DNA of 40,595 nt from NCBI RefSeq assembly GCF_001485575.1, contig NZ_BCNB01000008.1, positions 1-40,595 of the forward strand, written 5' to 3'. Positions within the stretch are counted from its first letter, which is position 1; every line of letters begins with the position of its first letter. Shown in pieces: positions 4,244 to 21,957 of this stretch. The notes beneath the pieces are model-generated. The model was not told the origin of the DNA. It did no database searches and worked only from the letters and a program-made list of their open reading frames with translations. Both the position numbers and the translations under genes were made by a program. This DNA comes from Haloarcula sp. CBA1127. Its GTDB lineage: Archaea > Halobacteriota > Halobacteria > Halobacteriales > Haloarculaceae.

Positions 4244-4287
4244 ACTAACCAACATCGAACAAGAAAAGTTGTGCAGTGTTGGTTAGT
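4244..4287. repeat. Long-spacer inverted repeat, copy A
   Basis: ACTAACCAACA (4244-4254) and TGTTGGTTAGT (4277-4287) form perfect 11-bp arms separated by 22 bp. The right arm touches the stop codon of the minus-strand zinc-ribbon gene. It lies between that gene's end and the parA promoter. Related copies are at 10334, 11003 and 21916. Confidence 0.8.
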
Positions 4288-4424
4288 CAGAAATCGTCGA
4301 GGGTCGTGTTCGAGGAGTTGTCGCAGTAGGGCCGTGGACAGTCGCCTTTGTCGTATATCGCCGCGTCGAACTGCTCGAAACACTCGTCGCACATCCAATA
4401 CTCGTCGGCGTCAGCGACGTTCAC
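4287..4424 (-). CDS. 45-residue zinc-ribbon protein
   Basis: A short gene starting at GTG 4424, overlapping the stop of the upstream gene, with GGAGGG about seven bases before the start. The product has CDEC at residues 12-15 and a second pair at Cys29 and Cys34, enough for one zinc ribbon. It ends at the edge of inverted repeat A. Function unknown; it is one of many small zinc proteins here. Confidence 0.6.
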   Translation of the reverse strand: MNVADADEYWMCDECFEQFDAAIYDKGDCPRPYCDNSSNTTLDDF

Positions 4425-5083
4425 ACCGACCCTCCTGCGAACTCGGTAAAGTCCGCCTGGTGCTCAGCCTCGCCAACGACTTCGAAGACCGGTGCGCCGA
4501 GGAACTCCTCGCCGTAGCGGCAGTACACGTCGCCATCGCGAGCGACGAGTTCGTTCTGGAACTTCGACTGCCAGTCGTCCCGTGTGAGGTCCGTCCCGGG
4601 ATCAGCGTAGGCCACCGACCACGTCGCGATCCCACACGATCGCGTCTCGGTCACCCGCGCGACCTTGCCCTCACGGTCGCCCGGCAGTTCGATTCGGTCA
4701 CCGCGCTGAACGAGCCCGTCGACGTCGTCGGTCGAGCGCGGATACCATGGGCCCCAGGACTCGCTGTCGAACGAGAGTGGCTCGGCCGGGCCGGCGTCGC
4801 CGATGTAGACGTGATGAGTATCGCCCAGGCGACGGGCTCGGTCAGCCTCCAACTGGGTGCAGTCCGCGCCACAGCGGCCGACGTGATAGGCATCCTGCTT
4901 ACGACGTCGTCGATAGAGGTGCGCATTGACAGCTTCCTCGGCGAGCGGGAGTGTCGGGAACAATCCGGCCCACTCGCAGCGGCGTGAGCTACAGCTGACA
5001 TGGTAGCCCCAGCTGGCGTTGCGCAGTGTCTGCCGCGGGAGTGGGTTCTCGACGATAATGTCGGAGGGGTCAGTGATCTCCAC
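4421..5083 (-). CDS. Uncharacterised protein of the leftward operon
   Basis: About 220 residues. I prefer GTG 5083, because GGAGG stands seven bases before it; ATG 5107 would overlap the upstream gene by 38 bases. The N-terminal part contains Cys pairs and a basic stretch (YRRRRK near residue 60); the C-terminal half looks beta-rich, with many Gly, Val and Trp. No family recognised. It sits in an operon of overlapping small genes ahead of parA. Confidence 0.6.
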   Translation of the reverse strand: MEITDPSDIIVENPLPRQTLRNASWGYHVSCSSRRCEWAGLFPTLPLAEEAVNAHLYRRRRKQDAYHVGRCGADCTQLEADRARRLGDTHHVYIGDAGPAEPLSFDSESWGPWYPRSTDDVDGLVQRGDRIELPGDREGKVARVTETRSCGIATWSVAYADPGTDLTRDDWQSKFQNELVARDGDVYCRYGEEFLGAPVFEVVGEAEHQADFTEFAGGSV

Positions 5084-5264
5084 GGTTTCCCTCCTGGTCA
5101 GTGGCATCCACGTATCGGAGCTCTAAGTCGGCCTCGTCGGACTCGCGCACCTCAGCAAACTCTGCTTCCGCAGCGCGCAACGCCTCTTCTTCAGATGCGT
5201 CCTCGGGACACGGCAGTCGGTGGCGCACAGTCACCTCAACGAACGGGAGGTCGCTTTCGCTCAC
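5070..5264 (-). CDS. 64-residue acidic protein
   Basis: A small acidic protein with a beta-strand-like start (FVEVTVRHRL) and an alanine/glutamate-rich helix in the middle. Its start overlaps the stop of the DUF6884-like gene, so it is probably translated with it. No known family recognised. Confidence 0.55.
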   Translation of the reverse strand: MSESDLPFVEVTVRHRLPCPEDASEEEALRAAEAEFAEVRESDEADLELRYVDATDQEGNRGDH

Positions 5265-5899
5265 GCCGACTCACCACCGACCGCTCCGTAGTGATCTAGA
5301 TCGGCCCTGTCCGGTGGGTGGTAGCTGTCGATCTGCTCGCGTAGCCAGCCCTGCTGGTCCCCGATCCCGCCGAGGTCGTCCGACCGAAACGGGAACGACA
5401 CGCGGCGGTGGCCGCTTGCCAGTTCGTCCTCGATATGGCGAACGTAGTCCTCTCCTGCCAGTACGACGTAGCTCGCATACACTGCCTGGAACGAATCGAA
5501 GACACGGATCTCGTTGGATGTGTTGACCGACCACTTCCCGGCCTCGTAGTCGCCTATGTAGCTGTTCGAACTCGGCTTCAGCGAGGCGTCGTAGGCCCCA
5601 ATCTCTTCGTCGGGCGAGATGAGACCGTGCTCCGCAGACAGGATCATCCACTTGTCACAGCAGGTTTCGGCGAACTCGCGTTTCAGCGAGAAGTACGGCG
5701 AGTCGTACAGGTCCTTCGCCGCCACTGTCTCGCCGTCGTCGAGGGCGATCTTCGATGACCCACAGCCGACCAGCGCGATGCGTGGCGCAGCAACGCACTC
5801 ACGGCAGACCTGGCCGTCGACGTGAGAGAACTTACTGTCGAGTCCTTCGCCGGAAGCCAGCCGGGAATCGCACCAGTGGCAACGATTAGTACCGGTCAT
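5261..5899 (-). CDS. DUF6884-like protein with N-terminal zinc knuckle
   Basis: A 212-residue protein. An N-terminal CHWC ... CREC pair (residues 7-10 and 32-35) suggests a zinc knuckle. From about residue 40 it carries the pattern of a phage and archaeal family I recall as DUF6884: VGCGSSKI, then AKDLYDSPYF, then WMILSAEHGLISPDE, then GAYDASL. The biochemical activity of that family is not established to my knowledge. The start ATG overlaps the previous stop as ATGA. The family assignment is from memory of the motif order. Confidence 0.65.
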   Translation of the reverse strand: MTGTNRCHWCDSRLASGEGLDSKFSHVDGQVCRECVAAPRIALVGCGSSKIALDDGETVAAKDLYDSPYFSLKREFAETCCDKWMILSAEHGLISPDEEIGAYDASLKPSSNSYIGDYEAGKWSVNTSNEIRVFDSFQAVYASYVVLAGEDYVRHIEDELASGHRRVSFPFRSDDLGGIGDQQGWLREQIDSYHPPDRADLDHYGAVGGESA

Positions 5900-6087
5900 A
5901 GTCTAACAGTCGCTCCAGTAGTGAGGTGGTCGATATCGGGCCCGCAGTCAGGACAGACCGTGTAGCCACGCGTCGACCCTGACCCACAGACCCAGCGTTC
6001 AGCGTCGCAGTGCTCGTAGCGACACGGGAGCTTCACACAGGCCGGGTGCAGTTCCCGAACGTCGACGTAATCGTCGAGGTCAGGCAT
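5896..6087 (-). CDS. 63-residue zinc-ribbon protein
   Basis: A small protein with five to seven cysteines, including CVKLPC, a CRYEHC segment, a single Cys and CPDC near the C-terminus, consistent with one zinc ribbon. Start ATG 6087 overlaps the upstream stop and the stop overlaps the next ATG, so it is part of a tightly coupled operon. Role unknown. Confidence 0.6.
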   Translation of the reverse strand: MPDLDDYVDVRELHPACVKLPCRYEHCDAERWVCGSGSTRGYTVCPDCGPDIDHLTTGATVRL

Positions 6088-6454
6088 CGTCACCACGCGC
6101 GAAGGCAGCCAGTCCTGTCTGGGGCGTGGCGATCTCCTCGACACCGCGCACGCGCTCGAAGACGACAACCGACGACTTTGGGAGATAGCCGCCGAGGCCG
6201 TTGCGATGCGGTTGTTCGAACTTCCACGCCTTGTCGCTGTAGTCCTCGACGTCGCCGACGGCCAGGTGATCGGATGCATCGACCGTCTCGATATCCTTGT
6301 CGCTGTCCTCCAGCAGCCACGACGGGAGCCAGACGACGTGGTCCCACGACTGTTCGGTGAAGATCGTCGCGACGCGCTGCTTTACTCGCGACGAGGCTTC
6401 CGGTGCGGCGTCGATGTCGTCCCACGATGAGACAGCGATGTGGCTGTCAGACAT
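6080..6454 (-). CDS. Uncharacterised 124-residue protein
   Basis: Start ATG 6454 overlaps the end of the exonuclease gene by eight bases. The protein has a Trp-rich central part (WDHVVWLPSWLL) and a C-terminal beta-like segment ending in a short acidic tail. No motif tied to a known activity. Longer frames upstream are Arg/Cys-rich and unlikely to be coding. Confidence 0.6.
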   Translation of the reverse strand: MSDSHIAVSSWDDIDAAPEASSRVKQRVATIFTEQSWDHVVWLPSWLLEDSDKDIETVDASDHLAVGDVEDYSDKAWKFEQPHRNGLGGYLPKSSVVVFERVRGVEEIATPQTGLAAFARGDDA

Positions 6455-6962
6455 CACTGTCCTCCAACCGGCGGAGTGTCGCTTGCACGAGACGCACCTG
6501 GTGGATCGCATCATCAAGCGCGTCGTGTTCGACGCCGTCATGTTCGAGCTCCGGCGCGACGGGGAGCGACTTCAGCGTGCGTACGTCCCGCTCCTCGTAG
6601 AACTCCCAGGGCATCGACACACCAACGGCCTTGCCGGCCTCGATGAGCATCTCACAGTCGAACGACGGACTGTTTGCCCAGACTTCATCAGCGCCACCGG
6701 CCCAGAGCGAGAAGTCCTGCAGGACATCCTCGAGGGCGTCGCCACCGTCCAAGGCTTCGCGAGCGGCGTCGGACTGATCCTGCCACCACTCCAGCGTATC
6801 TTCGTCGACGGTGAGGCCAGCCGCCTCGCAACTCTCGCGACTGATCGAGGCTTCGAACGTGCCGCCGATCGTGTCGGTGTCGAACTTGACGGCGCCGATG
6901 CTCAGGATAGCCGCGCCCCGTTCGAGCCCAAGCGTCTCGATATCGACCATGACCCGCATCAT
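6447..6962 (-). CDS. DEDD-type 3'-5' exonuclease, Rv2179c-like
   Basis: A 171-residue RNase H-fold exonuclease. Motif I is MVDIETLG (Asp7, Glu9), followed by ILSIGAVKFD; motif II is near FDCEML (about residue 100); RDVRTL follows; and HDALDDA near residue 150 is the Exo III region with His and Asp. The compact size matches phage and bacterial Rv2179c-like enzymes, which act on single-stranded ends of DNA or RNA. The substrate here is unknown. It overlaps its neighbours by four and eight bases. Confidence 0.8.
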   Translation of the reverse strand: MMRVMVDIETLGLERGAAILSIGAVKFDTDTIGGTFEASISRESCEAAGLTVDEDTLEWWQDQSDAAREALDGGDALEDVLQDFSLWAGGADEVWANSPSFDCEMLIEAGKAVGVSMPWEFYEERDVRTLKSLPVAPELEHDGVEHDALDDAIHQVRLVQATLRRLEDSDV

Positions 6963-7190
6963 GCGAACCTCCCGAGACCTTCTTGATTGGCGTCGCGTGT
7001 GGTGTCCCGGTCGCTCCGGATGTCCTGGCAGGACTTACAGAGCCACTCGCCGGCGAGGGTGAGCTCCGATGTGTCGGTCCCGCAGCGAGAGCAGTCGCCC
7101 GGCGCTGCGCAGTCGATGCATAGCGTTTCACCGTCGAACTCGCGGATGGGCGCCACGGGACGTGACGCCACACTGCTCGCACTCAGACAT
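6959..7190 (-). CDS. Double zinc-ribbon protein with a frame break near its start
   Basis: From GTG 7171 a 70-residue protein is read, with CIDC, CSRC and CKSC pairs. ATG 7190, just before it and overlapping the upstream stop region, begins MSECEQCG in another frame, supplying the fourth CxxC pair expected for two complete ribbons. Skipping one C in the CCC at minus-strand 7150-7148 joins the frames into a 76-residue protein. Either the sequence has a one-base insertion, or GTG 7171 is the true start and the ribbon is incomplete. Function unknown. Confidence 0.55.
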
Positions 7191-7467
7191 GGGCGTCCTC
7201 CAGGCCCCGCTCACTCAGTCGCGGCGGGACCGTGCCTCTGGGGACGGTCTTCCCAGTCGGATACTCAGTGAGGTCAGGCTGGTAACCGACCTCCTGGGAC
7301 CACTGTGCGACGACCCACTGTGCGCGCTCTGTGTCGTCAGTAAACCCCTTGTCGCTCCTGATAGCCTCGCCGATGAGGCCGAGCAGGTAGTCGATATCGT
7401 TCGTCGAGTCGAGATTGTTCGACTCCGAGAGCAGGGTGCGTACTGCGCCTTCCTGCTCACTCGCCAT
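7183..7467 (-). CDS. Uncharacterised 94-residue protein
   Basis: ATG 7467 overlaps the end of the J-domain gene by 11 bases. The middle (about residues 20-60) is helical, with conserved-looking AQWVVAQWSQEVGY; the tail is Pro/Arg-rich. Longer upstream readings are Arg/Ser-rich shadow sequence. No family recognised. Confidence 0.6.
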   Translation of the reverse strand: MASEQEGAVRTLLSESNNLDSTNDIDYLLGLIGEAIRSDKGFTDDTERAQWVVAQWSQEVGYQPDLTEYPTGKTVPRGTVPPRLSERGLEDAHV

Positions 7468-8086
7468 CCAGCATCGCCCCCTTGGCTTCCTGAATCCGCT
7501 GGAATTCTTCGCGATCGCCGTCGTCGTTGTCGGGATGGACGTTCGCCGATAGCCTGCGGGCGACGGCCTCGACGACGTCGTCGGAAGCATCCTCAGCGAC
7601 GCCCAGGACCTCGTGGGGCGGTTCCGTCGACGCGACACCCGAGCCGTCGCCGGCGACGATGACGTCTTCGTTCCCCGAGGGCAGCTGCGCCGTCGCGAAC
7701 TCATCCTGCCCGGTGTGGACCGGCCGGTTGTTCATCTTCCGCTTCTCTGCGATGTAGAGGCCGATGGCGCGCACGTTGTCCCGGAGGCCGTCGTACTGGT
7801 CGGCGGCGACGGCGTACTGCTCGCCGTCCATCGTCCATCTGACGACAGCGCCGGGATCGGCCGGGTTCGCGTCGGCGTAGGGGCGACCGTCCTTCTTGCG
7901 ATGGGGCGCTGCGGTCGACAGTCGCCAGTCGTCGACGCCGAGTCTGTCCTCGAGTTCAGTCTCGATATCGTTGATCGCCTGCGCGAGCGTGACCGAGAAC
8001 TTCGGCGTGCTTTCTGGGCGCTGCGTTCGCTCAGCCCAGTGAGGCCAGTCTATCTCCCCGCCGGTGCGGTCAGTCTTGCTGGGCAT
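7457..8086 (-). CDS. J-domain-containing protein
   Basis: A 209-residue protein with a C-terminal J-domain-like segment from about residue 158: PHEVLGVAEDASDDVVEAV, then the HPD motif at residues 184-186, then a final helix ending AKGAML. HPD is the residue set that stimulates Hsp70 ATPases. The N-terminal 150 residues are a separate alpha/beta region of unknown role. Such proteins occur in haloarchaeal viruses and plasmids and may recruit host DnaK. Its ATG overlaps the end of the upstream gene. Confidence 0.7.
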   Translation of the reverse strand: MPSKTDRTGGEIDWPHWAERTQRPESTPKFSVTLAQAINDIETELEDRLGVDDWRLSTAAPHRKKDGRPYADANPADPGAVVRWTMDGEQYAVAADQYDGLRDNVRAIGLYIAEKRKMNNRPVHTGQDEFATAQLPSGNEDVIVAGDGSGVASTEPPHEVLGVAEDASDDVVEAVARRLSANVHPDNDDGDREEFQRIQEAKGAMLDGE

Positions 8087-8312
8087 CGTTCACCTCGTCG
8101 ACGACCATTTCATATACTTCGGGGAAGTGGTCCTGTAGGAAATCCAGATCCTCACCGAGATGCTTCTTGACGCGGTTTCGAACCGTGCTTTCCACCTTGT
8201 ACCGGTAGTTGTCCGACACATCGGCGTCGCCACTGATTATCTCCCGTTCGCGATCAGTCAGCAGCGCGCGTCCCTCTTCACTCATTACCTCGTCTGTTTC
8301 TTGGACAGCCAT
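8070..8312 (-). CDS. 80-residue protein, first gene of the leftward operon
   Basis: Starts at ATG 8312 with GAGGT five bases before it, so the transcript has a leader. The product is helical and charged, with LTDREREIISG followed by YRYKVESTVRNRVKKHL, a pattern I have seen in many haloarchaeal genomic islands but cannot name. The basic middle helix could contact DNA. As the first gene after the divergent control region it may be an early regulator; this is inference. Confidence 0.65.
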   Translation of the reverse strand: MAVQETDEVMSEEGRALLTDREREIISGDADVSDNYRYKVESTVRNRVKKHLGEDLDFLQDHFPEVYEMVVDEVNDAQQD

Positions 8313-8434
8313 ATATTACCTCATGTCGTAAGTATACGCCTTGGAGTAAGTAACTTACGCTTATGCGTATGCACGCTTTGGAGTGTATACGCTATAGAGT
8401 AAGTATTAAGTGCATGGCGCTATGACTACTATAC
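8313..8434. promoter_or_regulatory. Divergent early control region with direct repeats
   Basis: An AT-rich gap between the leftward and rightward early operons. A 21-bp unit is repeated at 8332-8352 and 8385-8405 with 18 of 21 positions equal; both copies start GTATACGC and end AGTAAGTA. Between them lies the perfect dyad GTAAGT/ACTTAC (8346-8358). TATA-like words at 8390-8395 and 8404-8409 sit about 28 bp from the possible starts at 8422 and 8435. Likely operators for one regulator of both operons. Confidence 0.65.
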
Positions 8435-8974
8435 GTGAAGCGGAACACCGGCGATCCGACGCAGAACACGATGGCCGGGACGCGTTGCACCGCGTCCGAC
8501 CGCTTCGCTACCAACGAAGCAATGAGTACTATTCCATCCACCCGAAGTAAGCCTTCGGGCACGGACCGAGTGTGGAAGTGGATCGATCAGTCAGACAACC
8601 CAGAGATCATCCCGGAGACGTGGGCCGACAACGGCGCTCGTGAAGACGCCGCCGCTGACGAAGAGCGGTACTTCGCCGTCGAGGCACGGGCCGGCCTCCA
8701 GCTGGAGTACAACACCAACGACCGCGGGCAGGCAACCGGCGTCCCCAACCGGGAGCGGCCAGCCATCCAGACGCTGTTCGTCACGGCCGACGGCGGTCGC
8801 GCTGTCGTGATCGAGTCCCAGGCCGCCGGCAACGGCGACAGTGTGCGGCCGCTGTCGGACTGGGCGGCCGTCATCTCGCGGCCGGAAGGTCACGGTGACA
8901 CCGTCGACGCCGACGCTCGCGATGCGTACCGCGCCGTCGTTCGCGATCTCTACCCCGAGGAGGTCGAGGCTTGA
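8435..8974 (+). CDS. Uncharacterised 179-residue protein, first gene of the rightward operon
   Basis: GTG 8435 lies 28 bp after a TATA-like word; ATG 8522 would give a 150-residue protein. The GC-rich third positions of the first codons favour 8435. The protein has a Trp-rich segment (about 46-65) and an alpha/beta core up to the C-terminus, which ends in an acidic helix. No family recognised. A short frame of 42 codons beginning at ATG 8422 overlaps it and looks less coding-like. Confidence 0.6.
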   Translation: MKRNTGDPTQNTMAGTRCTASDRFATNEAMSTIPSTRSKPSGTDRVWKWIDQSDNPEIIPETWADNGAREDAAADEERYFAVEARAGLQLEYNTNDRGQATGVPNRERPAIQTLFVTADGGRAVVIESQAAGNGDSVRPLSDWAAVISRPEGHGDTVDADARDAYRAVVRDLYPEEVEA

Positions 8975-9252
8975 TGAGCGAGCTTGTCGACGCGCTGGCC
9001 GACCGCGGCTTCGAAGAGATCGAGGACGCCGGCCTGCCCGGCGGCTGGGCGACCGACGGCGAGTGGACGGTCGCCATCCGCAGCCGGATGACAGGCGTCG
9101 GTGGTCTTGACCACGAGGTCCGCGTCTACGACTGCGAAGCGGGCCTGATCTCGATCGGGACTTCGCCGGTTGGTCGTGGCTATGGGTCGAGCCACGACCT
9201 CGCGGTGAGAGAGGCGCTTGAAGATGCGGGCTACATGGAGGGCGATCACTGA
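8974..9252 (+). CDS. Uncharacterised 92-residue protein
   Basis: Start ATG 8974 overlaps the previous stop as TGATG. The protein reads like a small alpha/beta domain: an N-terminal helix (LVDALADRGFEEIEDAG), then strands with EWTVAIRSRM and HEVRVYDCE, then a C-terminal helix. Not recognised. Coupled to both neighbours. Confidence 0.6.
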   Translation: MSELVDALADRGFEEIEDAGLPGGWATDGEWTVAIRSRMTGVGGLDHEVRVYDCEAGLISIGTSPVGRGYGSSHDLAVREALEDAGYMEGDH

Positions 9253-9581
9253 TGTCTGGCGCTCGAACCTGTCCGGCCGACCTCCAGGATGTCTTTGTCG
9301 GCGACCACGTCGAAGACCGCGATGCTGACGACGACGGTGACGCGGCGACGCTGCTGGTGGTCGCGACGCCGCCCCAGGACGCCGACGAGTACGCCGTCGG
9401 TGACGATGCGACGGTCGCGGACTACAACGAGGACTACCCCAGCGACGACGCCGTCATCGAAGTGGTCTACGCCCAGCGGACGTGCGTCGATATCGACAAC
9501 ACCCGGCGCTACGCGTTCCCGCGTTCCCGGCTGCAGTTGACCGAGCCCGCCCACGATCTCGAAGCGGAGGGTGACGACTGA
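9252..9581 (+). CDS. 109-residue protein sharing a domain with the ParB-like gene at 20958
   Basis: Most of this protein matches the first 100 residues of the ParB-like protein: a DIVQ/DVFVGD-like start, a hydrophobic strand before TPP, then YNEDYPSDDAVIEVVY against DNPEYPADDRVVIVVY, and YAFP near the end of both. The shared domain is about 95 residues and probably beta-rich. Function unknown. It overlaps its neighbours by one base on either side. Confidence 0.6.
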   Translation: MSGARTCPADLQDVFVGDHVEDRDADDDGDAATLLVVATPPQDADEYAVGDDATVADYNEDYPSDDAVIEVVYAQRTCVDIDNTRRYAFPRSRLQLTEPAHDLEAEGDD

Positions 9582-9916
9582 TGGCCGCCGCAGCGAGTGC
9601 CGACATCGAAGCGCTGGCCCAGCTGGACAGTCGCGACGTCGGAGCGCTGACCGAGCACATGGATATCTACGCCGACGACCCGGCGACACGGGACGAGCAG
9701 GTGGCTGTCTACAACAAGGGCACGCGGTACATCATCGACTTGGTCGCCGAGACCTGTGACTGCCCGGACATGCTCCACCGGCGGCCCGACGGCGGGTGCA
9801 AGCACTGCCGGCGCATCCAGTTCCGTCGTGGTGAGCGGGAGATCCCCGCCGGGGTCGACCGTGATGCCATCGACGATTCGTTGCTCGAACACATCGATGA
9901 CGGGGTGTCCCGATGA
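9581..9916 (+). CDS. SWIM-type zinc finger protein
   Basis: A 111-residue protein. An N-terminal region with VAVYNKGTRYIIDLVAETCDC leads into CxC, a spacer, and CKHC, the CxCx(n)CxH pattern of SWIM zinc fingers, at about residues 63-80. SWIM fingers bind DNA or proteins. Similar small SWIM proteins occur in haloarchaeal plasmids and viruses. The tail is acidic and helical. Confidence 0.65.
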   Translation: MAAAASADIEALAQLDSRDVGALTEHMDIYADDPATRDEQVAVYNKGTRYIIDLVAETCDCPDMLHRRPDGGCKHCRRIQFRRGEREIPAGVDRDAIDDSLLEHIDDGVSR

Positions 9917-10077
9917 CGGAGATGCAGTACGGCCAGGGCTGGATCGACTGGGCCCACGTCGAGATCACGCCGTTGTCGTCGATGCGCTTCGGTGTCTACC
10001 TCCCGAGCCCGGTCAGCGACCACGTTACGCTGCTGGCCTACCGTCGGTCGACCGGCCTCGAGGTGGACGTCCGATGA
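9913..10077 (+). CDS. 54-residue protein
   Basis: A short gene overlapping the upstream stop (ATGA) and the downstream start. The product has an N-terminal WIDWAHVEITPL segment and a strand-rich middle. Only the overlaps and codon use support it. No function can be given. Confidence 0.5.
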   Translation: MTEMQYGQGWIDWAHVEITPLSSMRFGVYLPSPVSDHVTLLAYRRSTGLEVDVR

Positions 10078-10271
10078 TGCGGCCGCCGGCCTGGGCGCTG
10101 CCCGAGTCCGAGTTCAGGTTGGTTCGCTCTGGCGTCCCGGTCGACGTCGACGGCATCAAGATCGGCGCGCCGACGGGCTACGTGGTCTGCTGTGACTGTG
10201 GCCGCGGGGCCCGCAACATCGACTGGATCGAGCACGGTCCGACCTGCGACAGTCCCGCCGCGGAGAACTGA
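10074..10271 (+). CDS. 65-residue zinc-binding protein
   Basis: Start ATG 10074 overlaps the upstream stop. The C-terminal half holds CCDC (about 43-46) and a further Cys and His (HGPTC), consistent with one zinc site. It is the last gene of this operon, ahead of inverted repeat B. Function unknown. Confidence 0.55.
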   Translation: MMRPPAWALPESEFRLVRSGVPVDVDGIKIGAPTGYVVCCDCGRGARNIDWIEHGPTCDSPAAEN

Positions 10272-10333
10272 CAGCGTTCATTTCTTGTTTTAAGCGGTTA
10301 CCCCACGCTGACAGGAGGGGCGTACTGCGAGCG

Positions 10334-10374
10334 TTAACCAACACTGGCCGGCTCCGCCGACGACTGTTGGTTAA
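10334..10374. repeat. Long-spacer inverted repeat, copy B
   Basis: TTAACCAACA (10334-10343) and TGTTGGTTAA (10365-10374) are perfect 10-bp arms with a 21-bp spacer. The copy lies 62 bp after a gene end and before the TATA-like words at about 10391-10407 of the next gene. See copies A, C and D. Confidence 0.8.
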
Positions 10375-10431
10375 GCCACTGATGCCCCCAGCTTTATCCC
10401 GATTTAGTGACCAGATAGCTACATCGCCGCC

Positions 10432-10997
10432 ATGCCTGACCATCCGACGGGCCGCTGTGGATCTGTGCGGACTGCGGGGCCCGTCACGACAGCAACGACC
10501 CTCCCTGTCGAGAGTGCGCTAGTGAGCAGTTCGCCAAGCTCGAGCCGAGCGATACAGACCGGCTCGACTCGACGAACCGAGTGACGTGGATCTGCCAGGA
10601 CTGCGGGACCAGTTCGCCGCGGAACAACTCGGCCTGCCGTGAGTGTGGCGGGTTTAACTACGCGAAAATCGACACCGACAGCGCCACTGCCGGCTACGAC
10701 GGTAGTGATGTCCCGGACGAGCCCACCAGCGACTCCAACCGGAAGCGCGACTACTACATCGGCGTCGTGCTGGGTGTTGTCGGCGTCCTCGTGTTTCCGT
10801 ACTTTTTCTTCCTGGTCGCACTGCCAGAAGCGCTGTTCCAGCTGGGCGGGCGGTCACTGCAGGACGTGCTCGGCGGCGACGCTCGCGACAATCCATTTCT
10901 GTCTGGGTCGTTGCTCATCATGCGCTGGTTCGGCAACTTCCTTATCCTCACGTTCATCCTAGGGTTCCTTCTAGGGCTGCTGTTCATCTTCGGCTGA
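10432..10997 (+). CDS. Zinc-ribbon membrane protein with a frame break
   Basis: The coding signal runs from ATG 10432, but a one-base shift is needed within ACGGGCC (10447-10453). In the corrected reading the protein has two zinc ribbons, CADC/CREC and CQDC/CREC, a polar linker, then two strongly hydrophobic segments at the C-terminus. Without correction the only in-frame start is GTG 10581, giving 138 residues with one ribbon. Zinc-ribbon-plus-membrane proteins are common and uncharacterised in haloarchaea. The repeats B and C flank the gene. Confidence 0.6.
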
Positions 10998-11002
10998 GGA
11001 GA

Positions 11003-11044: not shown

Positions 11045-11084
11045 CGCACCGGCGCACGAAACGAACGAAACGACCCCCTGTTGC

Positions 11085-11093: not shown

Positions 11094-11119
11094 CATATCT
11101 GAGTACTATCCAGTTACTT

Positions 11120-12130
11120 ATGCTCTCCTCCAGACATGTGTTGGACGAAGAGCGGGTTCCCGACGAGGACCTCGTCGTCCACCGTCGCGACGAGCTTGAT
11201 CGGTTGATGGCGGCGCTGCGGCCGGGCGACACCTGGCCAACGGATTTGATGTTTCTTATCGGCCCGACGGGCACGGGCAAGACGATGCTCTCGAAGCTCG
11301 CCTTTGACCTCCTCGAGCAGGACGGCGAGATGCCGGAGTTCGAGAGCGCGTACGTGAATGCCTGGCGCCACGACGAACGCCGGGATATCCTGCTGCAGAC
11401 CGTCGATCAGCTTTGCCGAGCGCCGGTCCACGAGAACGCCACCGGTCGGTCGGAACTGATATCGCATCTCGAAGGCGACCCAGGCCATCCGCAGTACCTA
11501 GTCCTCGACGAGGTGGACCAACTGCACGACAAGGACGTCCTCTACGATTTGCACAGCGTTCCGGTCAATCTTATCCTCGTCGCGAACCGTGAGGAGGACC
11601 TATTCGCTGGCATGGCCGACCGGCTCAAAAGCCGGCTGAGCGTGGGCCGCCGGATCGAGTGCGGTGCATACGCCGACCGGGAGATCGCGGCGATCCTGTC
11701 GAAGCGGGCTGAGTATGTGCTCGGCCGGGCGGGCTCACGGTGGGACGAACGGGACATGATGCACATCGCCGAGCACTGCGACGGTGACGCTCGGGTCGGC
11801 GTCCGCACGCTGCGGATCGCCATCGAAGAGGATGGGGAAGTCCCCGACGACGTCGTCGAACGCATCCTGCCTCAGGCCCGGGACCGACTACGCCAGAAGA
11901 GTCGCGACCAGCTGACCGACCACCAGGAAGCCGTGCTCTGTGTCGTCGAAGAGTTCGGCCCGATCACGACCAACGGCGTGATGGACCAGTATCGAGACCG
12001 CGTCGACGACGCCCGGACGAAGCGGACCGTCCAAACTTACCTTTCGAAGCTCGAGCAGTACAACCACGTCGAGCGGGCGGGCCCAGACAACAAACCAGAG
12101 TGGTCGGCAGTCGAGTACGAAACGGTCTAA
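11120..12130 (+). CDS. orc1/cdc6: Orc1/Cdc6-family replication initiator
   Basis: A 336-residue AAA+ ATPase. Walker A is GPTGTGKT at residues 48-55, Walker B is YLVLDEVD at 126-133, and NLILVANRE follows as the sensor 1 region. The C-terminal 80 residues form a winged helix (LTDHQEAVLCVVEEFGP to the end), the part that binds origin DNA. Archaeal Orc1/Cdc6 proteins recognise origins and load the MCM helicase; none is coded here, so host MCM would be used. The protein is slightly shorter than chromosomal Orc1. The intergenic region before it, with inverted repeat C, is a candidate origin. Confidence 0.9.
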   Translation: MLSSRHVLDEERVPDEDLVVHRRDELDRLMAALRPGDTWPTDLMFLIGPTGTGKTMLSKLAFDLLEQDGEMPEFESAYVNAWRHDERRDILLQTVDQLCRAPVHENATGRSELISHLEGDPGHPQYLVLDEVDQLHDKDVLYDLHSVPVNLILVANREEDLFAGMADRLKSRLSVGRRIECGAYADREIAAILSKRAEYVLGRAGSRWDERDMMHIAEHCDGDARVGVRTLRIAIEEDGEVPDDVVERILPQARDRLRQKSRDQLTDHQEAVLCVVEEFGPITTNGVMDQYRDRVDDARTKRTVQTYLSKLEQYNHVERAGPDNKPEWSAVEYETV

Positions 12131-12427: not shown

Positions 12428-12432
12428 ACATC

Positions 12433-13885: not shown

Positions 13886-13886
13886 G

Positions 13887-15183: not shown

Positions 15184-15311
15184 GCGACAACATCTGCCCG
15201 GTCTGCGATGCAGTGAGTACCGAAATCTTCCGCTGCTCGGAGTGCGGGAAGCTGTTCGACGATGACGAGAGCAGCGGACGGTCCGGCTCGATGCTCGGAG
15301 GTGGGGCCTGA
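15180..15311 (+). CDS. 43-residue zinc-ribbon protein
   Basis: GTG 15180 overlaps the upstream stop and the stop overlaps the next ATG. The product carries CPVC (residues 6-9) and CSEC (19-22), a complete minimal zinc ribbon, followed by a polar Gly/Ser tail. Confidence 0.55.
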   Translation: MSDNICPVCDAVSTEIFRCSECGKLFDDDESSGRSGSMLGGGA

Positions 15312-16165: not shown

Positions 16166-16367
16166 GCAGTCCTTGGGCGGTACTGAGCGCCCCGGTCGTT
16201 TCTCGCACCCGAGAAACCTGCTGGTTGATGGACCGAAAGGGCCGATGTTAGCCCACGACTGCGAAAGTTCTGGGACCGGATGGCCTAAACCGGGCTCGGT
16301 AGAGAAGTGTCTACACTGCACAGTAGACACGGCCACTGACCAGGAGGTGTCGGCCGATGGTCAGTGA
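16155..16367 (+). CDS. 70-residue small zinc-binding protein
   Basis: ATG 16155 overlaps the previous stop. Contains one isolated Cys and CLHC near residue 55, plus several His, enough for a partial metal site. Pro/Gly-rich N-terminus. Unknown function. Confidence 0.5.
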   Translation: MPSEQSLGGTERPGRFSHPRNLLVDGPKGPMLAHDCESSGTGWPKPGSVEKCLHCTVDTATDQEVSADGQ

Positions 16368-16599
16368 GGGCGACATCATTCTCGAGGCCGGCCGCAACCA
16401 CATCGAGTCCGGGCTGGGTCAGTACATCCCGCTGTGTGGAGCCAGCCTCGACGCCGACGAGGTCGACCGCGTCGAGTACCGGACCGGCGACGGCGAGGAC
16501 CGCGACATCTGGTGGCAGTCTCACGAGTCGTTCTGCTTCGACTGCCACTCGGTCCAGAACCGTCGGGCTGTCGAGGGCAACGGAGGTGCGTTGTCGTGA
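16357..16599 (+). CDS. 80-residue Cys-containing protein
   Basis: Starts inside the upstream gene's end (ATG 16357). IPLCGASL in the middle and a C-terminal FCFDCHSVQNRR, so two cysteine clusters that could bind one metal. This arrangement is frequent in haloarchaeal virus and plasmid proteins of unknown role. Confidence 0.55.
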   Translation: MVSEGDIILEAGRNHIESGLGQYIPLCGASLDADEVDRVEYRTGDGEDRDIWWQSHESFCFDCHSVQNRRAVEGNGGALS

Positions 16600-16880
16600 G
16601 CGCCTTGGCCGAGCTGCTCGCCGGCGCGGTCCCGCTGTACGAGGACGATGCCCCCCGCTTGATCGAGTGGGCGGAGAACGTCCAGGAAGCCGACGGCAAG
16701 ATCCTGCCCGGAGCCGGCTTCGGGATAGACACGACCGGCCGCTCGATCAACGTCCAGGACCGCGTCGGCGACAACGCCGATGTGGAACCCGGGTCGTTCG
16801 ACGACGGCTGGATCGCGACGCCGGGCCACAGTCACGGCGACTGTCCCCGGTGTGCTGACAACCAGCCGTCATCGCACTGA
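16596..16880 (+). CDS. Uncharacterised 94-residue protein
   Basis: GTG 16596 overlaps the preceding stop. The protein is acidic, with a helix at the N-terminus (LAELLAGAVPLY) and a C-terminal HSHGDCPRCADN that holds one CPRC pair and two His. Not recognised. Confidence 0.55.
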   Translation: MSALAELLAGAVPLYEDDAPRLIEWAENVQEADGKILPGAGFGIDTTGRSINVQDRVGDNADVEPGSFDDGWIATPGHSHGDCPRCADNQPSSH

Positions 16881-16900
16881 GCCACAAAGAGCGGGAGATC

Positions 16901-16975
16901 GTGCTCATCGACTGTATCAACTGTCGGACCCGGTACAGTCTGGACGCCCTCGGAGGTGACGGCGATGGAGCGTGA
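16901..16975 (+). CDS. Possible 24-residue zinc-knuckle peptide
   Basis: A GTG-started frame with CINC at residues 5-8, ending inside the next gene. It is very short and weakly supported; it fills the 84-base gap between 16880 and 16965 and follows the operon's habit of small Cys-pair proteins. Confidence 0.3.
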   Translation: MLIDCINCRTRYSLDALGGDGDGA

Positions 16976-17543
16976 CGGGTCAGACCCGCGGGCCCCGCAC
17001 TGGTTCGGGTTCAACCGCGTCAACGACCTGCCGAACCCCTGGAGCTTCGAGGTCTTGGACTGGAACGACGACCCCGACGGCGAAGCGGTCGACCGCGGGC
17101 TCGGCGTGACGACCGACGGCGAGCATCGCCTGCTCATCACCACGTGGCTGGTCGAGCGCGAGCGCACCCACGACCGGATGTTCAGCGTGGCCTACGAAAC
17201 GGTCAATCAGGACGGCGAGGACGAGCCACTCGCGTTCCACATCGGTCGCGATACATCCATCGCTCGCAACAACTGTGGGCACGCACGGGACAGTCTCGAT
17301 GCGACCGACACCGAGCCACACGTGCTAGTTCGACAGCACGACAACGGAGACGGTGAGCGTGAGACCTTCGAGTTCCCGAACGAGACACTCGCGCAGCAAG
17401 CCGCAGACCTGCAGGCGCGGCTGAAGCTCGAACACAGCAACCGCGACTACATCGTGACAGTCCACAGCAAAGACGAGTGGCAGGAGCGTCTTGAGCTCGA
17501 AGCAGACCTCGAGGCCGTGGGTCGGGGTGGTGCCGATGTCTAA
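16965..17543 (+). CDS. Uncharacterised 192-residue protein
   Basis: ATG 16965 chosen; GTG 16956 would add three residues. Mixed alpha/beta, with an N-terminal HWFGFNRVNDLPNPW segment, a strand-rich middle and a C-terminal helix with many Glu. No known motif. It is in one operon with the next gene, overlapping by eight bases. Confidence 0.6.
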   Translation: MERDGSDPRAPHWFGFNRVNDLPNPWSFEVLDWNDDPDGEAVDRGLGVTTDGEHRLLITTWLVERERTHDRMFSVAYETVNQDGEDEPLAFHIGRDTSIARNNCGHARDSLDATDTEPHVLVRQHDNGDGERETFEFPNETLAQQAADLQARLKLEHSNRDYIVTVHSKDEWQERLELEADLEAVGRGGADV

Positions 17544-18378
17544 CCTGTCCGACTACGTCGACAGCGCCGCCCGCCGGGTCACCGAGTTCGACGAGGATCC
17601 GCGGATGGCCGTGTCGGTTGTCGTCGACGATGCGCTCGCAGCGGATCAGCGCGAGGTCGTGCTCGAGCGTGTCCAGGAGCAGGTCACTGTGCCGGTCGCA
17701 GATGGCGGCTCGTCTGCCCTCGATACCGATATCGAAGACATCGGCGTCGGCGAGGGGGAGTCCTGGACCGAGGCCGCGGAGCGCCTCGACGAAACACCCG
17801 ACTGGGACCTTGGCGTAGGCGCGGTCCTGTACAACGACCGTCCCGACGCGCCGGAGGATCGCCGAGACCTCTGGCACGTGACCACGCGGCTGGTCGACCA
17901 CGACGGGTCCGACCACTTCTACGTGCTGTGGGACGGCACTCACACCCGGCGACGATTCGTCCGCATCGAAGACGTCCTCGCTGACTTCGCGCCGGCGGGC
18001 TGGTGCTGGCCGACCGGTCGGAAACCACTCTACCACCTGACCCGGAACTGCGGCGTCGACGATCCCGACGACCTCATGACCGACGGTGGCAGTATCACAG
18101 CCCCGACATGCGGGACAGAAAACTGTGACACCGTGTGTCCGGGTCTCGATGACGGCTGGGAACAGCACGACGGAACCCTCCGGTGCGCTGACTGTTGGAG
18201 TTACCAAGAGCGACACGGTCACTGGCCCGATGAAGACGTGAAGATCTGCGTCGAGTGTCGGCTCGACCAGGGCAAGGTCAAGCACGACTGCGAGGAGTCG
18301 TTCGCCGACTACGTCATCGTCGACGAGGGCGGCGAGTGTCCGATCTGTGATAACGCCATCGAGGGTGGTGAGCAGTGA
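17536..18378 (+). CDS. Large protein with C-terminal zinc ribbons
   Basis: 280 residues from ATG 17536. The N-terminal part is helical (ARRVTEFDEDPRM ...), the middle strand-rich. The last 100 residues hold a cluster of cysteines: NCGVDD, TCGTENC, a CADC pair, a CVEC pair and CPIC, about three metal sites. Possibly a nucleic acid-binding or scaffold protein of the early phase; no family known to me. Confidence 0.6.
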   Translation: MSNLSDYVDSAARRVTEFDEDPRMAVSVVVDDALAADQREVVLERVQEQVTVPVADGGSSALDTDIEDIGVGEGESWTEAAERLDETPDWDLGVGAVLYNDRPDAPEDRRDLWHVTTRLVDHDGSDHFYVLWDGTHTRRRFVRIEDVLADFAPAGWCWPTGRKPLYHLTRNCGVDDPDDLMTDGGSITAPTCGTENCDTVCPGLDDGWEQHDGTLRCADCWSYQERHGHWPDEDVKICVECRLDQGKVKHDCEESFADYVIVDEGGECPICDNAIEGGEQ

Positions 18379-18689
18379 TGGCCGCACGACAGCTGGGCGG
18401 CGGGCAGTACCAGCACCAAGACGGCCAGATCGTCCGGAAGTCCCACCCGCGAGAGATGTGGGACCAGCGCTGCGATTCCGAGTGGGAAGGCACGAACCTC
18501 CGTGCCATGTGGCGCGAAGCAGAGGACGTCGTTTACGCCGACATCGAGGGGTCGTATTACCGCTACCACGAGGCCTCGGGGATGATGCTGGTCGCTCGGT
18601 GGGGCATGATCCAGACGGCCTACCGACTCGACACGGACCCGAGATACCGACAAGAAGCTGTCAAGTCGCAACTGGAGGACGATCACTGA
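18378..18689 (+). CDS. Uncharacterised 103-residue protein
   Basis: ATG 18378 overlaps the previous TGA by one base. Gln/His-rich start, then WREAEDVVYADIEGSYYRYHE and RWGMIQTAYRL. The stop overlaps the next ATG. Not recognised. Confidence 0.55.
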   Translation: MAARQLGGGQYQHQDGQIVRKSHPREMWDQRCDSEWEGTNLRAMWREAEDVVYADIEGSYYRYHEASGMMLVARWGMIQTAYRLDTDPRYRQEAVKSQLEDDH

Positions 18690-19113
18690 TGTCTGACGCA
18701 ACTAGCGGTTTTAAGTCGGCGGATGAGCAATTCGAGAGACAGAGCAAGGACTACGAGAACACAACTCACCTGAGAATGGGACGCCGTCCCGGGCTCGGAC
18801 CCGCGCCAACGGGATTCGCCCGGGACGCAACCGTTGACTGTAGCGTTCTATTCTGGGTAGACGGTCTTAAGCCTTTACCAAGAGCCCCCGCTCTACGCAG
18901 AGGACCGTCTGCCGTCGCCTTCGGGCGTCGGGTCTGCCGTGACACTACGAGCATGCAGAGATCGCACAACAGACGACCGTCGTCGTACAGAACTACAGAA
19001 CCGTCTTTGAGAGTGACCCTATCCAGCAGCGATCCCTGCAAACAGATTTTTTGTTTGAACTCAGGGGAACCACTCCACAAGAGGGGGTACCCAGCCACCC
19101 CCAAAGCCGCTGA
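18689..19113 (+). pseudogene. Small gene interrupted by a 176-bp structured insert
   Basis: ATG 18689 opens a frame of 27 codons up to CAC 18767-18769. The rest of the protein appears to continue in another frame from TAC 18946 to the TGA at 19111. Removing 18770-18945, which is bounded by CAC on both sides, gives an 82-residue protein whose second half is helical and clearly coding (EHAEIAQQTTVVVQNYR). Read straight through, frame 2 continues to 19309 as Arg/Pro-rich sequence unlike a real protein. It could be inactivated by an insertion or restored by RNA or DNA removal. Confidence 0.5.
18770..18945 (+). mobile_element. 176-bp hairpin-rich insert (possible IS200/IS605-like MITE, or intron)
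   Basis: Stems seen: GTCCCGGGC/GCCCGGGAC (18786-18794, 18818-18826); AGACGGTC/GACCGTCT (18859-18866, 18903-18910) enclosing AGAGC/GCTCT (18881-18885, 18890-18894); and CGCC-TTCG-GGCG (18916-18927). Hairpins close to both ends and no clear target duplication beyond CAC fit the ends of IS200/IS605 elements and of the haloarchaeal palindrome-associated elements. No transposase is present. Other readings are a small intron or a free structured RNA. Confidence 0.5.
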
Positions 19114-19189
19114 AAGCGGCGTTAGCCTGTCGATGAGACAGGCTCAACCAGAGCAGCACTCAGGGGGCGGGCTTGCCCCCGCCCCCCTG
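19106..19189 (+). other. Three consecutive hairpins behind the interrupted gene
   Basis: GCCGCT/AGCGGC with loop GAA (19106-19120), AGCCTGTC/GACAGGCT with a 5-base loop (19124-19144), and a GC-rich hairpin CAGGGGGCGGG with CCCGCCCCCCTG (19161-19189). The first overlaps the gene's stop codon. They could end or protect transcripts; no T-run follows. Confidence 0.5.
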
Positions 19190-19390
19190 CCTCACAGCAT
19201 GATGCTGTGTGTGGCGGTGGTGCAGCCCCCACCCACACAGCACATAGCTGTGAGGCTGGTTCAGGGGGTGGTCCCGATGCGTGCCCCGCCCCCCTGCCTC
19301 ACAGCATGATGCTGTGTGTGGCGGTGGTGCAGCCCCCACCCACACAGCACATAGCTGTGAGGCTGGTTCAGGGGGTGGTCCCGATGCGTG
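19177..19390 (+). repeat. Exact 107-bp tandem duplication
   Basis: Unit 1 is 19177-19283 and unit 2 is 19284-19390, identical by eye. Each unit holds CACAGCA-tga-TGCTGTG, a second CACAGC/GCTGTG and an outer CCTCACAGC/GCTGTGAGG, so it can fold into a branched structure. 107 is not a multiple of three, which speaks against coding use. It ends at the start region of the next gene. Confidence 0.8.
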
Positions 19391-20571
19391 ATCTCGTCAT
19401 GTTGGACTGGATGGTTCCTGAGTGTTCCTGGCAAGATTTCCGAAATAAGGTCCAATCTGAACACGGCTCTGTTGAGGGCTATCTCGGCCGAAAAGCCGCG
19501 GATGCTATGGATGAATTTTCCGAGGCTGATGGCTACGAAACTGTCGAGGATCAGATTGACCGTCTCGTCCGTGCCGCCGGTCGCACTCCCAAAGACCGCT
19601 GCAAAGAAAAAAAGAGCGCAGATGAACGGGGCTCCCCACTCTCATCTGAGGCTACGACTCGTGTGACTATCCGTGTGGACAAGCGCGTCAAAGAGCGGTT
19701 CAAGTCTGCCGCCGATGACTCGGCGTTTGACTCCTATGGCGTCGCGTTTGGTCGTGCGTTAGAACTGTACTGTGACGGCGGAAGGGCATCCCGGTTAGAG
19801 GATAAACTGGACCGGGTCGTCGATGATGCAGAGGCTATTCTTTCCCAACTCAACGAAAGTGAAAGTACCAGCGATGGGCTCAGTGCGGTCGAGCGACGGA
19901 CAATCACCATCTGTCACCGACTGGGTGAGCAGTTTACAGATGACGAGCTCACTACCGAGATCGCTGATGTTGCGGGTAGCTCAGAACCGACTGTTGAGAA
20001 GTATCGCGAGCGTGTCGTGTCCCGGCTGGGTTACGAGCCCCATCCCAAGGCGCAGCGGAAAGTCTGGGTGCCGGCTGAGGTAGCGAAAGAAATAGCGACG
20101 GACGGCGTGCCACGCGAGATACGTCGCCCAGTTGATCTACTGGATCGTGATGAGCGAGTGAAACGGATCAAACTCGCCCTCGGCAAACACGCTGGAAAGT
20201 GCGGGGGGCAGGCGAGGGCCACGGCGACAGATGTCCGCAGTAAGGTATTCGACCACAATATCTCTCTGTCGAGTGTCCTAGATCTCCTGAATCAGGTTGC
20301 GCTGGAAGACGGCTATAAACTTGATCGGGGTGGCGAGACGACAACAATCGGTGTGAACGTTGCGGGTGGGATCACCGACGAAACCCTCGCCGAAACGATT
20401 CGTGAGTACATCAGCGCTGATGTAGGCAGTCTGCTTGGTGAGACGACAGAGACAACGATGAGTGACTGGACGGACAACTCGGATCCGTCAATTGCGGGCA
20501 CTTCAGGTTCGCCATCGAGCGCAGCAACAGACGGCGGTGGGCCGGCTCCGCGTGGTGATCGTGATGACTGA
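19384..20571 (+). CDS. Haloarchaeal accessory DNA-binding-type protein
   Basis: About 395 residues from ATG 19384; MVPECSW at 19411 may be the true start. I recall similar proteins in haloarchaeal islands and plasmids but no firm function. Domains by eye: an N-terminal helical part (about 10-75), a segment TTRVTIRVDKRVKERF that resembles an RHH or Arc-like strand-helix, a helix-turn-helix region at about 165-215 (VERRTITICHRLGEQF, then SSEPTVEKYRERVV), then a winged-helix-like region and an acidic, Ser/Gly-rich tail. Codon use is less GC-biased than in its neighbours, and the hairpins and duplication upstream suggest it came as a separate unit. Confidence 0.6.
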   Translation: MRDLVMLDWMVPECSWQDFRNKVQSEHGSVEGYLGRKAADAMDEFSEADGYETVEDQIDRLVRAAGRTPKDRCKEKKSADERGSPLSSEATTRVTIRVDKRVKERFKSAADDSAFDSYGVAFGRALELYCDGGRASRLEDKLDRVVDDAEAILSQLNESESTSDGLSAVERRTITICHRLGEQFTDDELTTEIADVAGSSEPTVEKYRERVVSRLGYEPHPKAQRKVWVPAEVAKEIATDGVPREIRRPVDLLDRDERVKRIKLALGKHAGKCGGQARATATDVRSKVFDHNISLSSVLDLLNQVALEDGYKLDRGGETTTIGVNVAGGITDETLAETIREYISADVGSLLGETTETTMSDWTDNSDPSIAGTSGSPSSAATDGGGPAPRGDRDD

Positions 20572-20965
20572 TGTCGAGATCCGAGACGGTGCCCAACCCG
20601 AGTCTGAAGACGAGGATGATCCCGTGCGGCGTTACGAGCGCGTGCTCAGCATCGCCCACGAACACGTCGGGGGGCCACAAATCCCTGGGGCGTCGGTCTC
20701 AACGATCCGCCGGCTGCTTGTCGGTGAGCCAGTCGGCTACGGGCCCTATCATCGAGACGATGTCGACGCCACCATCCAGGCGGTGATCAACGCCGAGGAC
20801 GCAATCATGTGGCGGGACCGCAACGGCCGCCGGCGGCTTGTCCCGACTAGGGATGAGGACCTCCGTGAGCTCATCGGCCACGAAAACGCACAGGAGTACC
20901 CGACGACAGCACTGATCCAGCAGGCAGCGCGTCACATCGATGACTTGGAGGCCAGCGATGCGTAA
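20564..20965 (+). CDS. Helical protein of 133 residues, winged-helix-like
   Basis: ATG 20564 overlaps the upstream end by eight bases. After an acidic N-terminus, the segment ASVSTIRRLLVGEPVGYGP and VDATIQAVINAEDAIMWRDRNGRRRLVPT looks like a winged helix with a basic wing. The tail is helical. Possibly a regulator working with the ParB-like protein that follows. Confidence 0.5.
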   Translation: MTDVEIRDGAQPESEDEDDPVRRYERVLSIAHEHVGGPQIPGASVSTIRRLLVGEPVGYGPYHRDDVDATIQAVINAEDAIMWRDRNGRRRLVPTRDEDLRELIGHENAQEYPTTALIQQAARHIDDLEASDA

Positions 20966-21692
20966 CTGCCCACACTCCCCCGGCGATATCGTCCAGGACC
21001 GCGAGCAGCACAGCCCCGACGACGCGGTCGTGGTGAACACACCGCCAGTCCCGGTTGCTGACTGGGACCTCGAGGACCGCGACAGGACCGTTGCCGAAGA
21101 CAATCCCGAGTACCCAGCCGATGACCGGGTGGTGATCGTGGTTTATCGAGAGGCCCTGGACCAGCATCGGCCACAGTACGCCGGCTACCAGCACCTCAAA
21201 CTCTCCCGACTGCTTGCTGACGGTGTGCCGTTGTACGCCTTCCCTTCATTACGCCTCGAGGCCGTCGGCAGTCTCAGTCCGACGACGGTCGCCGTCGACG
21301 AGATCCAGCCGACACCGTACCATGCACGCAACTTCTGCTACGAGGCCAACCAAGAGTTCATCGACAGCGTTCGCGAGCGTGGCTACCCAGTTCCGGAACC
21401 AGTCGTCCGTGTCGTCGACGACGGCTACGAAGTCGTCAACGGCCACAAGCGGCTGTGGGTGTCCCACCTTGCTGGGTTAGACCACATCCGGGCCCACGTC
21501 ATCCACGTCGACGAGTGGGACGCGGCCCAGCTGTTCGTCGAGAATCACCTCGACGGTAGCTACTCACAGTCCGAGGCCGATGTCGCCATCGCGAGGCTTC
21601 GTGTGCGCTGGGGGGACCGGGTGACTGGGCTCAGCATCCCGTCGAAGTACCTGCAGTCGACACAGTGCCAGGAGGAGCAAGCGTCGGCATGA
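20958..21692 (+). CDS. ParB/sulfiredoxin-fold protein fused to a virus-specific N-terminal domain
   Basis: 244 residues. Residues 1-100 repeat the domain of the gene at 9252. Residues 112-195 follow the ParB N-terminal pattern: VDEIQPTPYHARN, then NQEFIDSVRERG, EPVVRVVDDGYEVVNGHKR (162-165, in place of the usual GERR) and a hydrophobic strand. The ParB C-terminal DNA-binding and dimer domains are absent. Such proteins may be CTPases or nucleases, or act in viral gene control. It is far from parA, so it is unlikely to be the partition ParB. Confidence 0.65.
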   Translation: MRNCPHSPGDIVQDREQHSPDDAVVVNTPPVPVADWDLEDRDRTVAEDNPEYPADDRVVIVVYREALDQHRPQYAGYQHLKLSRLLADGVPLYAFPSLRLEAVGSLSPTTVAVDEIQPTPYHARNFCYEANQEFIDSVRERGYPVPEPVVRVVDDGYEVVNGHKRLWVSHLAGLDHIRAHVIHVDEWDAAQLFVENHLDGSYSQSEADVAIARLRVRWGDRVTGLSIPSKYLQSTQCQEEQASA

Positions 21693-21919
21693 GCCAGGGC
21701 GAGCACGCAGAGCTGTCGGACCTACCGCCGAGCGCTTTGCTGGTGTATCGCGTGCTCGAAGAGAGCCAACCCCTGACCAAACAAGAGATCTGTGCGGAGT
21801 CGTACCTCTGTGCGTCAACAGCTGGGAATGCGCTCTCAGAGCTAATCGATGTGGGTGTCGTCGACTACAACTATAGCACTGCTGACGCCCGCCGCCGGGT
21901 GTACTATCTTGAGCACTAA
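21689..21919 (+). CDS. Winged-helix DNA-binding protein, 76 residues
   Basis: ATG 21689 overlaps the ParB-like stop. The sequence has the helix-turn-helix shape of small archaeal winged helices: PPSALLVYRVLEES, then LTKQEICAESYLCASTAGNALSELIDVGVV and a wing ending YSTADARRRVYYLEH. It probably binds DNA as a dimer. Its TAA stop is part of the left arm of inverted repeat D, a possible target. Confidence 0.7.
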   Translation: MSQGEHAELSDLPPSALLVYRVLEESQPLTKQEICAESYLCASTAGNALSELIDVGVVDYNYSTADARRRVYYLEH

Positions 21920-21957
21920 CCAACACAACGTGCCGTCGACGGACGACTGTTGGTTAG
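21916..21957. repeat. Long-spacer inverted repeat, copy D
   Basis: CTAACCAACA (21916-21925, containing the stop codon of the winged-helix gene) and TGTTGGTTAG (21948-21957), perfect arms, 22-bp spacer. An inner dyad CCGTCGACGG lies in the spacer. The next promoter begins about 60 bp downstream. Confidence 0.8.

Follow-up and report, generated by a model that had tools for sequence, protein, structure and literature searches.

A long-spaced inverted repeat of haloarchaeal plasmids and viruses as a probable operator of DUF6788-like proteins

The window analyzed here, the whole of contig C8 (40,595 bp) of Haloarcula sp. CBA1127, whose genome of 4.36 Mb comprises nine contigs, contains four exact inverted repeats of the form YTAACCAACA-N21/22-TGTTGGTTAR. 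Comparative analysis links this repeat to the genes of small DUF6788-like proteins, and we conclude from the sequence comparisons that the repeats are probably operators of an autoregulated, co-evolving protein of this kind, with further sites spread over its own and other replicons, those in the window being targets in trans. Each repeat of ~42 bp would then be a bipartite operator for a dimer (or a larger symmetric assembly) of a protein that is encoded mainly on plasmids of Halobacteria, contacts two inverted half-sites of ~10-13 bp each that are three helical turns apart, probably bends the DNA in its AT-rich middle and, bound immediately ahead of the start codon, represses its own gene. 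Each of two subfamilies would recognise its own site type, the types being distinguished by the outer base pair (T..A or C..G, hereafter T-type and C-type), and distant relatives would read other arms. To our knowledge, DUF6788 (PF20586) is a family of unknown function, such that this is the first predicted function for its members, with the operator named to the base pair. A hitherto unexplained repeat on haloarchaeal plasmids, including pNRC100/200 and pNG500/600, would thereby become part of a regulatory network across plasmids and viruses.

Linkage of the repeat to DUF6788-like genes

When genes near the sites were compared, one family stood out: a protein of ~107-123 amino acids. Of its 26 members, 25 lie within 150 bp of a site, compared to 14% of all genes. 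In nearly all close members, the site lies 0-22 bp ahead of the start codon. Among loci found by protein search only, an exact, type-matched site was present just before the start in 19 of 23 distinct subfamily 1 genes and in 11 of 12 distinct subfamily 2 genes. Of the 37 related genomes with sites, 34 have a close DUF6788-like gene (best E < 1e-15), compared to 3 of the 23 without. The neighbouring genes differ (MarR-type, SWIM and others) while the site and the DUF6788-like gene stay together. The site collections were partly chosen via exact arms, the key co-variation results described below come partly from protein-selected loci, and many of the compared loci are related by descent, so that the counts do not represent independent events; gene calls were made with a simple codon model.

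Subfamilies 1 and 2 are linked to DUF6788 through a common profile and are only alignable relatives; the Pfam cut-off is passed by six divergent members (L565, L568, L569, L571, L578 and L579). AlphaFold2 models show a long helix and a C-terminal three-stranded sheet for a member of the family (predicted local distance difference test, pLDDT, 74) and a helix, three strands and a long helix for a bacterial relative (pLDDT 89). A sequence search of the PDB identified no convincing relative, and literature searches on DUF6788 returned nothing relevant, no paper in the searched library mentioning the family; searches on the arm sequence likewise returned nothing relevant. The association extends to a bacterial metagenome-assembled genome, L100 (4850-6000), where a DUF6788-like gene has two T-type (TTAACCAACA) sites upstream, the similar protein being encoded 12 bp downstream; this protein matches Pfam DUF6788 at E = 0.38 only. 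In L090, L138 and their orthologs, a GAAACTT..AAGTTTC inverted repeat surrounds a TATA-like box upstream of the DUF6788-like gene, between a divergent MarR-type gene and the site; it is probably the operator of the MarR-type regulator itself.

Co-variation of site type and protein type

Genes of subfamily 1 (..KEINDNRYYYWQWREG..) have T..A arms in 78 of 78 cases and C..G arms in none, whereas those of subfamily 2 (..KTIDGRDYYYLQWRDG..), which form a clade with support 1.0, have C..G arms in 11 cases, T..G in 2 and T..A in none. In 11 of the 22 divergent members tested, a different inverted repeat with a long spacer stands at the start codon; 7 of these repeats beat all 200 shuffles and 4 more reached p ≤ 0.01. 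Divergent members with repeats of their own pass the Pfam cut-off. The divergent arms include AGTTACCCCAC (spacer 22), TCTTACCAAACA (22), TACCTTATCAATAC (21), ATCTTAACCAAGG (23), CCTTATGTAAC (26) and others. The other 11 of the 22, including the chromosomal group of L570-L574, have no such repeat. Two of the alternative repeats recur elsewhere on the contigs of their genes (G017:C2, G028:C11, G039:C29). By contig, in lists compiled by hand, site type and protein type were associated at 22:1 vs 1:18; the same comparison restricted to distal sites, with the genes' own operators excluded, gave 15:1 vs 1:12 (p = 3 × 10−6). The arms TTAACCAACA, CTAACCAACA, AGTTACCCCAC, TCTTACCAAACA and others would represent natural specificity classes.

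Anatomy and conservation of the sites

The spacing between 9-bp arms is 21-22 bp in 187 of 245 sites and 20-23 bp in 225 of 245. The arms are nearly invariant, and few of those in the DNA examined deviate by one or two mismatches; the spacer sequence is free apart from an AT-rich centre. In orthologs found without requiring a site, conservation was 0.97 in the arms, 0.93 in nearby coding DNA and 0.81 in the spacer, and across 467 orthologous pairs the spacers were somewhat more diverged than the flanks. Between the four sites of the window and their counterparts on plasmid NZ_CP010534 (L222), the arm bases are identical at 80 of 80 positions, compared to 52% identity in the spacers and 77% in the 60-bp flanks; at the 10334 site, identity is 91% in the flanks and 50% in the spacer. 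The AT-rich centre of the spacer has GC-rich shoulders, also in sites distant from DUF6788-like genes, as would be expected for DNA bending around a protein. A spacer motif in two orientations scored above shuffles and probably reflects related sites and the AT-rich centre.

The outermost arm bases are coupled (T..A in 279 sites, C..G in 44, mixed C..A or T..G in 22). No such coupling is seen at the inner variable pair, whose asymmetric cases give A.C in the transcript more often than G.U (10 vs 2); in the asymmetric cases of the outer pair, the transcript has U.G in 8 vs 3. Coupling of the outer pair, together with an uncoupled inner pair that shows no G.U preference, is more suggestive of symmetric proteins with two specificities that recognise DNA than of an RNA hairpin.

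Sites in the window and action in trans

The sites of the window are as follows.

4245..4286, no strand: C-type site, arms CTAACCAACA-N22-TGTTGGTTAG, exact match; both arms kept in the L222 counterpart
10334..10374, no strand: T-type site, arms TTAACCAACA-N21-TGTTGGTTAA
11003..11044, no strand: C-type site, spacer 22, exact match
21916..21957, no strand: C-type site, spacer 22, exact match
2419..2452, no strand: degenerate, shortened copy TTAACCGACA...CGTTGGTTAT, probably a decayed site, on the basis of the L222 counterpart

All four perfect repeats reported in a preliminary description of this DNA, at 4244, 10334, 11003 and 21916, are present, and no match occurred in 100 shuffles, so that the number expected by chance is close to nil (0.008 for a whole genome of the same size and a looser pattern). 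The arm at 10334, given there as CTAACCAACA, is in fact TTAACCAACA, with an outer pair T..A instead of C..G. The degenerate copy placed near 2418 is credible because NZ_CP010534 has a one-mismatch site with normal spacing (24-bp gap) at about 31,035, the corresponding place. Positions relative to gene ends were also described accurately. The 4245 site, where an additional A..T pair yields 11-bp arms counted from 4244, lies between a minus-strand gene (4287-4424), whose end it abuts at 4286, and parA (3285-4112, minus strand). The 10334 site is 62 bp past 10271, the end of a zinc-ribbon gene (10074-10271); the 11003 site begins 5 bp beyond the stop at 10997 (gene 10581-10997), ahead of the promoter of an orc1-like gene (11138-12130); and the TAA within the 21916 site is the stop codon of a winged-helix gene (21689-21919). 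Between the 4245 site and parA, at 4160-4240, GTTAGACT-like repeats are clustered, resembling an operator or a centromere that would belong to the ParA module.

Judging by its genes for terminase, portal, minor tail protein, integrase, ParA, a ParB-domain protein and an Orc1-like ATPase (assigned via protein clustering), contig C8 is a plasmid-like tailed provirus; it is related to NZ_CP010534, its nearest annotated relative being a Haloarcula plasmid. The window contains no DUF6788-like gene; an intact subfamily 1 gene with its own T-type site is located on plasmid C4 of the same genome, and the T-type site at 10334 matches that protein's type. The provirus sites would thus be acted on in trans by the protein from a co-resident plasmid; the three C-type sites may be orphans here, be read across types, or be read in other hosts. 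It is conceivable, although we consider it rather doubtful, that plasmid proteins recognise matched sites in co-resident proviruses so as to set transcription boundaries or an immunity-like relation, with the arm classes as compatibility groups.

Distribution and gene context

The same genome contains 21 strict sites, only on C3, C4, C5, C8 and C9; the chromosome C6 (3.12 Mb) has none, nor do C1, C2 and C7, and a reversed control pattern had no match in this genome. The collection comprises at least ~350 distinct sites, of which almost all are from Halobacteria. Among related genomes, 37 of 60 have sites, with a maximum of 34 per genome, and some genera also carry chromosomal copies. Scans of public genomes and IMG/VR yielded, among the matches listed, mostly halobacterial contigs, plasmids and viruses; the few bacterial matches are in line with the ~56 chance matches expected over the whole collection, L100 being the one telling exception. 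Named plasmids with sites are pNRC100 (3), pNRC200 (8, among them those at 308493, 323165 and 330573), pNG500 (4), pNG600 (8), pHH126 (2) and pJ7-1 (6). Proteins of the DUF6788-like kind include those of Halobacterium NRC-1 VNG_RS11225 (WP_010904068.1) and Haloarcula marismortui pNG600 RR_RS02195 (WP_011222482.1). The phage collection searched contained no near match. On the G190 plasmids (L520-L524), sites with related spacers stand in groups of two or three at several loci, at distances of 85-410 bp, which suggests local amplification of whole sites.

Only 7 of 185 sites are inside genes, compared to 67% of random positions. Tandem, convergent and divergent gene contexts occur in background proportions, with no orientation preference; a directional promoter or terminator role was therefore rejected. 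A functional regulon was rejected as well, given the high diversity of the genes adjoining the sites. Among tandem sites, 40% have a stop codon within 20 bp vs 16% expected, which may be explained by promoter avoidance.

Haloarchaeal plasmids and viruses commonly encode SWIM-type zinc-finger proteins (CxC...CxH): C3, C4, C5 and C9 of this genome (G000) encode tandem SWIM domains and the provirus encodes one (window 9581-9916). Of the replicons read in this genome, precisely these five, the ones with sites, encode such a protein. A SWIM protein as the binder was nevertheless rejected because, of 46 halovirus contigs, 7 have both, 7 a site only, 11 a SWIM protein only and 21 neither. In six haloarchaeal genomes (L017, L033, L039, L051, L085 and L089), a site is found 16-34 bp past xseB of the xseA-xseB pair (exonuclease VII subunits). 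In L483 (pHH126), L519 (pNG600) and L002, genes for an ArdC-like single-stranded DNA-binding protein, PCNA, PolB and Orc1 are near sites, and some plasmids are typed MPF_T; this may be an early-entry region.

Alternative explanations

Several observations weigh against the interpretation of the repeats as operators of DUF6788-like proteins. Foldseek searches with the two models produced no match at E ≤ 0.001 and no significant likeness to a known DNA-binding fold. Members of subfamilies 1 and 2 fall below the Pfam gathering cut-off, which, given the common profile, is why we call them 'DUF6788-like'. Three relatives carry sites without the gene, and the pattern search in viruses that had been proposed as a check showed sites in 14 of 46 halovirus contigs, only one of which has the gene (with the site just before it), so that most sites in viruses, should they act, must do so in trans. 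The search of this genome yielded no intact subfamily 2 gene, though most of its sites are C-type, and the function of the distal sites is argued from position and by analogy only. Genomes and viruses with sites but without the gene, along with the lack of a recognised DNA-binding domain in the protein, would fit a scenario in which the DUF6788-like gene is merely a favoured target of some other host- or plasmid-encoded regulator. We consider this improbable because site type follows protein subfamily, divergent proteins have different arms at the same place, and neighbours vary while site and gene persist together. For the distal sites, the main alternative is that the same protein serves DNA bridging, partition or replicon organisation rather than transcription. 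The sites are indeed dispersed, symmetric and free of orientation preference, mostly confined to plasmids and viruses, and some are upstream of parA; however, the proximity to parA is not significant (4 of 13, p = 0.1) and many elements have a single site. We consider this role unlikely, if less so than a different binder.

The idea of the preliminary description that a protein contacts half-sites some three helical turns from each other is supported by the fixed spacing, the invariant arms, the free spacer and its AT/GC pattern; the binders that it named are not supported. Orc1 binding sites or replication origins would accord with the enrichment of orc1-like genes near sites (17 of 44 within 150 bp, p = 4 × 10−5), but sites do not accompany orc1 genes on replicons: C1, C2 and C7 have orc1 without a site, the sites of C3-C5 are not beside orc1, C9 has sites and no orc1 called, and plasmid Orc1 proteins vary while the arms do not. 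We thus regard Orc1 as a hardly credible binder. For the family of the 76-residue winged-helix protein, another suggested binder, no association was seen either: one of nine members has a site within 150 bp. The third suggestion, a virus regulator, is close in spirit to a DUF6788-like regulator, but genes for this best candidate are found mostly on plasmids, and the window has none. The background proportions of gene contexts and the lack of RNA-type pairing do not support a shared transcript 3' end as a general rule. An RNA hairpin or intrinsic terminator would explain the proximity of tandem sites to stop codons, some T-runs just downstream and the coupled outer pair; however, the coupled pair is only Y..R, the inner pair is uncoupled with A.C exceeding G.U, compensatory pairing with wobble tolerance in the transcribed strand was not seen even though the outer pair leans to U.G, the loop is fixed at 21-22 nucleotides, and divergent and leader positions occur, so that we find such a hairpin very unlikely. 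Equally slight is the probability of site-specific recombination or attC-like gene-cassette sites, to which the location after gene ends, sometimes paired around single genes, and the diverse neighbours might point. One-sided homology was more common at sites than at controls at ≥70% identity (164/136 vs 39/110), perhaps due to weakly conserved neighbours falling below detection, but not at ≥80% (21/118 vs 15/78), a threshold at which gene content does not change at the sites more than at other gene borders; neighbour diversity was not above the control, and positions are conserved between genera.

Comparison with known systems

Stoperators of cluster A mycobacteriophages (L5, Bxb1) are mostly located away from promoters and block elongation (PMC6550527). 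Like stoperators (PMC6550527, PMC9283540), the repeats occur in many dispersed copies with one cognate regulator and a consensus that changes with the protein: there are multiple dispersed intergenic sites (four in the window and eight each on pNRC200 and pNG600), and the specificity of the cognate protein appears, by sequence co-variation only, to change with the site. Unlike stoperators, which lack symmetry, mostly follow the direction of transcription and are bound by a repressor that the phage itself encodes, the sites described here are symmetric, 42 bp long, found in all gene orientations and common to plasmids and viruses, and the protein is unrelated. If DUF6788-like proteins bind the distal intergenic sites, the most likely effect would be a two-way block or insulator between transcription units; by analogy with the elongation block, we give a stoperator-like two-way roadblock or insulator a little short of an even chance. 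The repeats may reveal an archaeal dispersed-operator strategy comparable with phage stoperators.

The KorB operators of plasmid RK2 are likewise symmetric, dispersed between plasmid genes and bound by a plasmid protein. However, KorB is a ParB relative with a compact operator, whereas three turns separate the half-sites described here, and the protein does not resemble ParB. The AbiEi antitoxin of the type IV toxin-antitoxin system AbiE (PMC7319586) offers another analogy, as a DNA-binding protein of a small operon that represses itself via inverted repeats, similar to what is proposed here. The proteins showed no similarity to AbiEi, however; most haloarchaeal members have no toxin gene next to them, and sites are also present far away from the gene. 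As in AbiE, the DUF6788-like gene of the bacterial L100 precedes, and overlaps, a gene that reads like a nucleotidyltransferase; this operon may be of the toxin-antitoxin type.

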